Shown in pieces: positions 60,663-64,000 of a stretch of 64,000 nt of DNA. Within the stretch, counting starts at the first letter, position 1; every line of letters starts with the position of its first letter. This DNA comes from Moritella viscosa (GTDB lineage Bacteria > Pseudomonadota > Gammaproteobacteria > Enterobacterales > Moritellaceae). The position numbers and the translations under genes were made by a program. The notes beneath the pieces are model-generated. The model saw only the letters and a list, made by a program, of their open reading frames with translations. It was not told the DNA's origin and ran no database searches. Where the stretch lies: NCBI GenBank assembly GCA_000953735.1, contig LN554852.1, forward strand, positions 1,189,846-1,253,845, read 5' to 3'.

Positions 60663-61439
60663 ATGAGTAATTTAAAAGCCGCAGCCTTGAAAGCACTTAG
60701 CCTAATTGACCTAACCACACTGAATGATAGTGATACCGATAAGATAGTGATCGCATTGTGCCACGATGCTAAAACAGTCGTTGGTAATACTGCTGCAATC
60801 TGTATTTATCCAAGGTTTATTCCAATTGCTAAGAAAACATTAAGAGAGCAAGGCACTCCTGAAATAAAAATTGCGACAGTAACAAACTTTCCACACGGAA
60901 ATGATGACATCGCAATCGCTGTTGCTGAAACAAAGGCTGCTGTTGCTTATGGTGCTGATGAAGTGGATGTTGTTTTCCCTTACCGAGCGTTGATCGCGGG
61001 TAATGAACAGTTAGGTTTTGAACTGGTTAAAGAATGTAAAGAAGCTTGTGGTCAAATATTACTTAAAGTCATAATTGAGACTGGCGAATTAAAAGAAGCA
61101 CATTTAATTAAACGTGCTAGCGAAATTTGCATCGAAGCCGGTGCTGATTTTATTAAAACGTCGACAGGTAAAGTACCAGTTAATGCGACGCCTGAAGCCG
61201 CAGAAATTATGCTTAACGTAATCAAAGATATGGGAGTTGCTCAGCGTGTCGGTTTCAAACCCGCAGGCGGAGTGCGTACTGCTGAAGATGCTAAATTATT
61301 TTTGGGTATGGCTGCAGACATCCTAGGTGAAGAATGGATTGATACCGATCATTATCGTTTTGGTGCTTCAAGCTTGCTAACTAGCTTACTCAATACGTTA
61401 GAAGTAAGCAAAAAGGCTGTCGAGTCAGCTGCGTACTAA
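60663..61439 (+). CDS. deoC: Deoxyribose-phosphate aldolase
   Basis: The 258-residue class I aldolase (259 in E. coli) splits 2-deoxyribose-5-P into glyceraldehyde-3-P and acetaldehyde. The Schiff-base Lys lies in [16 protein letters not shown], with [17 protein letters not shown] and the proton-relay Lys in [11 protein letters not shown]. The usual deoA, deoB and deoD partners are not beside it here, so it stands alone between a LysR gene and a porin. TTTGGAG precedes the ATG. Confidence 0.96.
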
Positions 61440-61792
61440 TTGCCGATACTTCTATTGGTTTCATAGTCTTTACTATAGAAGAAAGCAATAAATCCTTGAT
61501 GTAAAATCCCACTTATTTGCAGTAAGTGGGATTTTTTTCACCCTCAATTCATTCCAATTAATTCTGTGTAGTCAAGGTGCTGTGGTTTGTACTACGTGTC
61601 CTCCTTGGACTTGAGATGGATGATTATCTGGTATTTTTACGAGTTACGGAGTATTGAGTTAACTAATATACTAATAGCAAGCAAGGCAAAGTTCACGTGC
61701 TATAACTGAGGATATTAATAATGCTCATAGATAGCAACGGCGTAAGACTTTTTTTTAATCTGCGTATCGACTAAACAAAATTGGAATTGTTC
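61440..61792 (+). other. deoC-porin intergenic region with a terminator
   Basis: This 353-bp stretch has the deoC terminator at 61503-61538, part of a 52-bp repeat found again after the porin. The remaining 250 bases should hold the porin promoter, but I see no clear -35/-10 pair or gene. Confidence 0.5.
61487..61538 (+). repeat. 52-bp terminator repeat, copy 1
   Basis: The segment from AATAAATCCTTGATG to the T-run contains the hairpin AATCCCACTTA/TAAGTGGGATT, followed by seven T. It matches 50 of 52 bases of the copy at 62788. It works as the deoC terminator. Confidence 0.92.
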
Positions 61793-62787: not shown

Positions 62788-62840
62788 TAATAAATCCTTT
62801 ATGTAAAATCCCGCTTATTTGCAGTAAGTGGGATTTTTTT
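62788..62840 (+). repeat. 52-bp terminator repeat, copy 2
   Basis: It is the same as copy 1 except for two substitutions (CCTTTATG and TCCCGC). The stem changes by one A-to-G, giving a G-U pair. It acts as the porin terminator. Confidence 0.92.
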
Positions 62841-62922
62841 TGATCGTTTAATATTGGTATTACTGTAACATCCCCCCACAACCGGACCTATAAAACTAAT
62901 ATTTGGAAGTATTGCTCAAGAT

Positions 62923-63615
62923 ATGATCGAGATTGAATATGCTATTGGTGAAATTAAAACGTCGATGTTTGTCGTAGAAAGTCACTCTTTTTACCTTGTT
63001 GCTAAAGAGTGGATAAAGGCCGAAGGTCTTAATGTGGGAGATAGAATATCCAGTTGCAGTGGAACTGTAGCAGAGATTTTATCCATCAATAAAATAGACG
63101 ATCCACAATATCGTCCAGATTTAAAACTGAGTCACAATCATCACTATTTTGTCACTACAGGTAGTGTGTCAGCTCATGATAAAATCAGTGCCGACGCCCC
63201 TACTGATCCGCTTGAATCAATCGCATATCTGTTAGCAAACAAACCCTCTAATTTCCCTGATGGAACACCAACTGGTGATCATGCTGGTCCTTGGGCTGCA
63301 GCGAAATATGTAAACAGTGATACCAGTGAAGACGTTATCGGCTGGGGTCGTGCAAGTGATCATATGTGTGCAGAAGATGCCGCGATAAGTGATTTGAGGC
63401 ATAAACTGGATGATGCTATCGGATTACATCGAGGTAATGTTAAAATCTCACATGCCTATGTGAGAAAGTATACTCGCAAAGGTCGCTTCGTGAATAAAAT
63501 GAGCCCTTGTACTCACTGTCGCGACAATTATGGCAGTGCACTCAATGACGTAACGATGGGAACGAGTAATGTAGTTAAAGAGGGCCGAGGGTATTTGGCT
63601 CTTGTAGGTAACTAA
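62923..63615 (+). CDS. Orphan HINT-deaminase polymorphic toxin module
   Basis: The 230-residue protein has two parts. Residues 1-86 resemble the second half of a pretoxin HINT autoprocessing domain: VVESHSFYLVAKEWIKAEGL, VGDRISS, and HHYFVTTGSVSAHD at the position of the usual VHN cleavage end. Residues about 90-230 look like a zinc-dependent nucleic-acid deaminase: DHMCAEDAAI with Cys149-Ala-Glu151, and MSPCTHCRDNYG with Cys196 and Cys199, the CAE...PCxxC signature. The N-terminal half of HINT and any Rhs, CdiA or secretion scaffold are missing; the frame is open upstream only to a stop near 62868. It therefore looks like a displaced toxin tip. Ribosome site is weak. Which deaminase subfamily, and DNA or RNA as target, cannot be told. 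Confidence 0.7.
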   Translation: MIEIEYAIGEIKTSMFVVESHSFYLVAKEWIKAEGLNVGDRISSCSGTVAEILSINKIDDPQYRPDLKLSHNHHYFVTTGSVSAHDKISADAPTDPLESIAYLLANKPSNFPDGTPTGDHAGPWAAAKYVNSDTSEDVIGWGRASDHMCAEDAAISDLRHKLDDAIGLHRGNVKISHAYVRKYTRKGRFVNKMSPCTHCRDNYGSALNDVTMGTSNVVKEGRGYLALVGN

Positions 63616-63884
63616 GGTTAATTTAAGCTATCCACAGATTAAGAGGTGGTCGAAATCGCTCGGCTACTTATCCTGCCACTCTGTCGCAGTTTTTAATCAG
63701 ATACTATGATTTCATACAGTGTTATTTGTTTATTTCTCAATTTTGTCACACTTTGTCAGAATCTGATTTCATTTCAGATTGATATTTTACCTTATATTTC
63801 ATTTTATTAGTTGCTATTAACTAGGGGGGCAGGTTAGGGTCATCGAGACGTCCTGTTATACAGACTTTAGGTGACTATTTGAGA
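63616..63884. other. Intergenic stretch after the toxin module
   Basis: No ORF of note is seen. AATCTGA and TCAGATT form a small inverted repeat near 63760-63780, which might end toxin transcription, though without a clear T-run. Confidence 0.4.
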
Positions 63885-64000
63885 ATGAAGTATAAAAACG
63901 TAAGATCTGCAATACACAATTTCGGGCATAGTTTTGTAAGTTATGAAAATTATGTCGATGGTGATTTTGTTTTGTATGAATTGAGAAATATTCACAATAA
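63885..64000 (+). CDS. Start of a gene cut by the window edge, candidate immunity protein
   Basis: An ATG at 63885 opens a frame that remains open to the last base, 38 codons, beginning MKYKNVRSAIHNFGHSFVSY and continuing ENYVDGDFVLYELRNIHN. The composition is typical of small acidic immunity proteins, and its place directly after an orphan deaminase toxin on the same strand fits the toxin-immunity order. The family is not certain, and the rest lies outside the window. Confidence 0.5.
   Translation, partial: MKYKNVRSAIHNFGHSFVSYENYVDGDFVLYELRNIHN

Follow-up and report, generated by a model that had tools for sequence, protein, structure and literature searches.

The 64,000-nucleotide stretch of Moritella viscosa contig LN554852.1 considered here (positions 1,189,846 to 1,253,845 of the forward strand, assembly GCA_000953735.1; below, the window) contains near its end a stand-alone open reading frame (ORF) in which part of a HINT domain is joined to a deaminase-like domain. 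The explanation that we favour, with a probability of roughly 0.55, is that this gene encodes a domesticated, cytoplasmic zinc deaminase derived from the tip of a HINT-deaminase toxin. From such a tip, both the carrier and the N-terminal third of the HINT domain would have disappeared a single time, in an ancestor of the present lineages. A preliminary description, made from the sequence alone, had placed the ORF next to a porin gene with no carrier attached, and had read it as a half HINT domain ending in VSAHD, fused to a domain with CAE and PCxxC motifs. Coordinates and motifs proved to be correct, and the ORF starts 185 nt past the porin stop codon, with a terminator-like hairpin in between. 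The gene is present as a single copy in the 5.09 Mb genome.

The C-terminal domain carries both motifs that mark the zinc-dependent deaminase superfamily, [HC]xE and PCxxC, and its residues C149, E151, C196 and C199 are invariant in all 27 distinct members of the family (alignment A4, from which the repeat fetches L010=L040, L012=L042 and L011=L041 were excluded), so that the motif cannot be due to chance. By reading, CAEDAAIS and PCTHCR of the window protein correspond to HAEQSAIS and PCGHCR in cytidine-deaminase ORFs, although the CAE Cys and the first PCxxC Cys are 47 residues apart here, against 27 for the HAE His and the first PCGHC Cys in one such ORF. The expectation that profile searches would connect the domain to deaminases was borne out only below threshold: the Pfam model dCMP_cyt_deam_1 (PF00383) matched three of seven members with a best E of 0.11, and the NCBIfam cytidine deaminase model matched 24 of the 27 at E up to 1, with a best E of 0.011 and, in one member, a score of 11.9 bits against a cut-off of 153. 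None of the deaminase models in Pfam or NCBIfam attains its curated cut-off on family members, which agrees with the earlier suggestion that this deaminase may lie outside the characterised groups.

Structure prediction gave a similar picture. An AlphaFold2 model of the deaminase-like domain, based on alignment A5, had a mean predicted local distance difference test score (pLDDT) of 69.9 and a predicted template modelling score of 0.68; a full-length model had a mean pLDDT of 51.9, which is too low for structural search. Both models predict a helix that starts from CAE (residues 150-161) and another that starts from PCTHC (197-203 in the A5 model, 197-208 in the full-length model). The predicted order of elements in the A5 model is helix, strands, CAE helix, strand and PCxxC helix, and the low-confidence full-length model has the same order plus an extra strand at 189-192. 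In the core of the deaminase superfamily the CxE and PCxxC motifs each open a helix after core strands, and the predicted elements follow this arrangement. The top structural matches of the A5 model were deaminases, at weak scores: 37 of the first 38 VIA-align rows, many of which are versions of the same few proteins, were superfamily members by title (cytidine deaminase, blasticidin S deaminase, TadA, yeast cytosine deaminase, RibD), and the named toxin deaminases DddA and SsdA were not among the matches shown.

In view of the invariant motifs and the weak fold matches, C149, C196 and C199 are the most likely zinc ligands of the C-terminal domain, in which E151 most likely activates the water that deaminates a cytosine- or adenine-type base. 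The sub-threshold profile scores, the weak fold scores and the fact that profile alignments missed the CAE motif could also mean that the protein is not an active deaminase, and that the fold, or the motif only, has been reused in a zinc-binding or regulatory protein. We consider this distinctly unlikely, since the CAE Glu and the PCxxC Pro are invariant along with the three Cys, and the predicted elements around the motifs occur in the order of the deaminase core.

The N-terminal part is a HINT domain that has been cut short. PT-HINT (PF07591) matches residues 2-79 above its cut-off (28.7 against 27.7 bits, E 1.8e-6), over profile positions 49-124 of 137, so that the N-terminal third is missing, and a profile of nine members (A2) matched the bacterial intein-like domain of PDB 2lwy at E 0.0014. 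Where PT-HINT matches the family in the 29 genomes with the gene or its fragments, the match begins at profile positions 44-50, which is consistent with one truncation point; in G008 it begins at 33 and runs through a stop. The PF07591 cut-off is exceeded by the family gene in 17 of the 29 genomes, some members scoring under the threshold used, and the two above-cut-off matches of genome G853 belong to other genes. The catalytic Cys of PT-HINT sits in the N-terminal block, and a complete domain with this block was not found, the match beginning at position 49 and the preceding leader being read as non-coding (see below). The C-terminal cleavage junction of HINT domains is of the VHN/VHD type. 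VSAHD (residues 82-86) is present only in the window protein and the JT01 protein among the 27 members, and becomes PLSRD, PAFHD, TLAQD, SALEV and others elsewhere. In the TxxH block, the Thr is absent from all 27 members and the His is kept in 25. Because the N-terminal block is absent and the junction is unconserved, the surviving piece should not self-process in the known way; its probable role is that of a small, beta-rich adaptor by which the deaminase is supported, gated or targeted. A split intein, in which the half HINT would be complemented in trans, was rejected because of the unconserved junction and because no other HINT piece was found in the M. viscosa genome at E up to 1, a search that could easily miss a lone N-terminal third.

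Translation probably starts at a Met inside the old HINT domain, which is invariant in 27 of 27 members. The 36-nt leader in front of it is alignable, as judged by eye, in 17 members, and is read as non-coding because 8 of these 17 carry a stop in the frame of the ORF. Its variation by codon position is 0.32, 0.22 and 0.25, so the third position is not the most variable, and together with the stops this disfavours an upstream extension of the protein. An earlier in-frame start is possible in at least three members (Shewanella abyssi L010/L040, 251 aa; L060, one codon; L051, TTG, 251 aa), for which reason use of the conserved Met is put as probable. In the five extended frames that are naturally open, the PT-HINT match barely reaches above the Met; Intein_splicing gives weak matches above it in three of these (best E 0.0028), so that the leader may represent a relic of the former HINT sequence. 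A TATAAT sequence stands 71-78 nt 5' of the ATG in S. abyssi and S. gelidimarina, and a promoter scan of the window gave no match in the leader.

Intact copies occur in many marine species of Shewanella and Moritella. Full-length genes were found in 4 of 11 Moritella genomes, that of M. viscosa included, with a fifth copy (G006) cut by a contig end, and 25 of 129 Shewanella genomes matched, among them S. abyssi and S. atlantica: 23 with full-length genes, G819 with fragments, and G793 with a HINT-only match within a 1694-aa frame. The 27 intact stand-alone members measure 226-248 aa from the shared Met, and all lie in frames of at most 271 codons. At the level of the order, 17 of 394 genomes matched, the nine outside Moritella and Shewanella in the HINT part only. 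Among 369 genomes of the class there were, besides the M. viscosa gene, three weak partial matches to the deaminase domain (E 5.7e-4 to 0.008), two of them cytidine-deaminase-like ORFs by reading and the third in frames without an evident deaminase; 398 genomes of the phylum gave one weak match (E 0.005) containing three stops. A single weak match came from plasmids (E 0.06) and another from phages (E 0.005), both limited to the HINT part; viral contigs gave no confirmed match, PADLOC none, PHROGs one at E 0.092, and BFVD at best an uncharacterised 73-aa phage protein (E 0.028). A literature search by title and abstract opening, with partial coverage, retrieved no description of this family. 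When the tree is rooted at its midpoint, the four Moritella rows group into a single clade (100/100) that is nested within Shewanella (87/87 at the enclosing fork), a topology that is consistent with a single transfer without proving it; from this tree, the gene may have reached Moritella from Shewanella.

Pairwise ratios of nonsynonymous to synonymous substitution (dN/dS; NG86, nine members, 36 pairs) are low. Between the window gene and three Moritella relatives, values of 0.095, 0.088 and 0.118 were obtained for the deaminase part and of 0.18, 0.22 and 0.38 for the HINT half. The order is reversed between S. abyssi and S. gelidimarina (0.18 for the deaminase part, 0.09 for HINT), and in pairs with G109 the synonymous distance is saturated in 8 of 8 cases for the deaminase part and in 7 of 8 for the HINT half. 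This pattern is that of purifying selection and not of decay. The preliminary description had offered a decaying remnant of a toxin gene as one explanation, and the loss of the N-terminal HINT third would fit it, as would genome G819, where two separate fragments cover only the last ~30 residues (L099:3478-3582 and L100:3785-3865) and indicate that gene loss does occur. For the family as a whole, decay is hardly credible in the face of 27 intact members with invariant motif residues and dN/dS values well below 1 (between the window gene and its three Moritella relatives, about 0.1 in the deaminase part and 0.2-0.4 in the HINT half).

The flanking sequences bear on the question whether the protein still acts as a toxin. 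When up to 1.4 kb on each side of the 27 members was compared (tblastx, E 1e-6), seven neighbourhoods emerged (7, 5, 4, 4, 4, 2 and 1 members). No downstream sequence joins any two of them, and clustering of proteins (frames of at least 70 aa, E 1e-8) agrees with this picture among the 25 largest clusters. Since no downstream sequence is common to the neighbourhoods, no cis immunity gene is seen, unlinked or very divergent immunity being outside the reach of this test. In Moritella, a lactate-permease-like gene (by reading) lies downstream at all four loci and a porin upstream at three; the Shewanella members occur in other neighbourhoods, with, by reading, a seryl-tRNA-synthetase-like gene upstream in five and a phospholipase-D-like gene upstream in three. 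The Moritella loci, when set against three Shewanella loci, resemble them in DNA sequence only across gene and leader. Within clades the neighbourhood is common, which suggests inheritance of the gene in place, with the one possible transfer from Shewanella to Moritella mentioned above.

The next ORF downstream of the gene (63879-64000 and past the window end; L002:7725-8093) encodes 122 aa whose function was not recognised, with no Pfam match at E up to 1. Relatives, 28-42% identical and one of them beside a transposase-like ORF, exist in 2 of the other 374 genomes of the order and in three records of the plasmid collection (Paraburkholderia, Mycetohabitans, Photobacterium). It has no relative in the other 10 Moritella genomes, by which it is ruled out as the family's antidote.

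If the protein were still a toxin, it would be an orphan tip that works as a toxin-antitoxin-like module or as a cargo effector, with immunity encoded elsewhere or unneeded because the target is eukaryotic. Several points are in favour of this reading: HINT-deaminase architectures are listed among the polymorphic toxins (PMC3482391); an orphan Rhs tip of Salmonella Typhimurium is expressed and functions in the manner of a toxin-antitoxin module (PMC7043789); DNA is mutated by members of three families of deaminase toxins (PMC7901873); and of the 29 genomes with the gene or its fragments, 13 contain RHS repeats, Moritella G004, G008 and G009 included. We nevertheless rate it as unlikely. The known orphan tips are accompanied by cognate immunity genes in the accounts available from PMC4287609 and PMC7043789, whereas the seven neighbourhoods have no downstream sequence in common; the M. 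viscosa genome has neither an RHS repeat (E up to 0.001) nor another PT-HINT (E up to 1); and no export signal is apparent by eye at the N-terminus.

The same searches speak against the earlier idea of a displaced cassette for recombination with a full-length rhs or cdiA gene carrying the same HINT sequence. No second copy of the protein was found in the M. viscosa genome, and all frames of the family stand alone; no carrier of the polymorphic-toxin type thus came to light, with the qualification that CdiA-type filament domains were not searched and that the tips of the RHS-repeat proteins in the 13 genomes were not read. A silent cassette would find a precedent in the class 1 mafB-CT cassettes of Neisseria, each of which has an initiation codon of its own within an intein-like domain that is truncated (PMC4287609), and the RHS-repeat proteins of the 13 genomes would also fit it. 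Those cassettes, however, lie downstream of mafB and are followed by mafI, and neither counterpart is seen here, nor does the gene adjoin a full-length gene with the same recombination region. Moreover, 28 of the 29 genomes lack any other PT-HINT at E 0.001, the gene occupies seven unrelated places, and selection acts on its reading frame, which makes such a cassette very improbable. The remaining genome, G853, has two further complete PT-HINT matches in other genes. The one that was read (L097:4132-6435) encodes a tail-fibre-like protein of 767 aa with an intact C-terminal PT-HINT that ends in AHN and no toxin tip.

We therefore return to the domesticated deaminase. Because no secretion part and no cis immunity are seen, action within the cell is proposed: the tamed enzyme would most likely act on nucleotides or nucleic acid in the cytoplasm of its own producer. 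A bolder version, to which we attach little weight, is that it edits RNA or DNA of the cell itself or of an invading phage at chosen sites, with the half HINT as a new targeting or gating domain. A route from toxin to editor has been proposed for the eukaryotic nucleic-acid deaminases, and an editing function here would be its bacterial counterpart.

Table 1 Features of the deaminase gene and its upstream region (window coordinates)
Feature	Position	Strand	Remarks
Stand-alone ORF, half HINT plus deaminase-like domain	62923..63615	+	230 aa, ATG; start Met common to 26 further full-length members
PT-HINT, C-terminal two thirds (residues 2-79), N-terminal third absent	62926..63159	+	Pfam PF07591; PDB 2lwy
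Deaminase-like domain (residues 90-225)	63190..63597	+	Alignment A5; AlphaFold2 model; weak structural matches to deaminases
CAE motif (residues 149-151), predicted zinc-ligand Cys and catalytic Glu, starts predicted helix	63367..63375	+	Invariant 27/27
PCTHC motif (residues 195-199), two predicted zinc-ligand Cys, starts predicted helix	63505..63519	+	PCxxC invariant 27/27
5' leader, read as non-coding	62887..62922	+	Alignable in 17/27 members; in-frame stop in 8/17
Intrinsic-terminator-like hairpin, 3' of porin and 5' of deaminase gene	62805..62837	+	In the 185-nt gap behind the porin

Two further observations concern the region upstream. Near-identical terminator-like sequences (AATAAATCCTT.ATGTAAAATCCC.CTTATTTGCAGTAAGTGGGATTTTTTT) stand at 61488-61538, after deoC, and at 62790-62840, after the porin gene, and stretches resembling them were found repeatedly in related Moritella loci. 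The deoC copy itself (60663-61439) has 82-86% identity to sequences in only three of the ten other Moritella genomes (G001, G003, G005); a deoC piece of 117-118 bp, 94-96% identical, lies ~1.6 kb from the deaminase gene in G004 and G009, which suggests that deoC was deleted there.

Toxin cassettes that stand alone are well documented and frequently come with an immunity gene (PMC3482391), and it is useful to compare the present gene with the nearest known systems, as far as the accessible parts of the cited sources describe them. The class 1 mafB-CT of Neisseria likewise start inside a truncated intein-like domain and end in a toxin-type domain. They differ in lying in genomic islands, with the mafI immunity gene next to them, and their intein-like domain misses only its first 7 residues (PMC4287609), whereas here ~48 profile positions are missing, no carrier or common neighbour is seen, and the gene is found in two genera. 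The orphan Rhs toxin of Salmonella Typhimurium is also a tip without a delivery part; it has a cognate immunity gene and adjoins a full-length rhs gene (PMC7043789), neither of which is seen here. With the polymorphic-toxin deaminases BaDTF1/DddA, BaDTF2/SsdA and BaDTF3 the protein has the superfamily motif pattern in common (PMC7901873), and some deaminases of this kind carry an upstream HINT domain (PMC3482391), as it does. It is set apart from BaDTF1-3, without direct protein comparison, by the lack of any Pfam or NCBIfam deaminase match over cut-off and of a visible carrier or immunity gene, and from cytidine deaminase and blasticidin S deaminase by its fusion to a half HINT, all scores being weak. 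If the deaminase is active, it would represent a new subfamily that is seemingly tolerated without a neighbouring antidote, of relevance to base-editing tools and to the question how deaminase toxins may become cellular enzymes. Compared with the known orphan tips, it has no neighbouring antidote in sight and has lost a third of its HINT domain, yet it persists intact in two genera and seven neighbourhoods. It has the appearance of a domesticated toxin tip, in which HINT has shrunk to a remainder that is probably non-catalytic while selection has preserved the enzyme part in 27 genomes.
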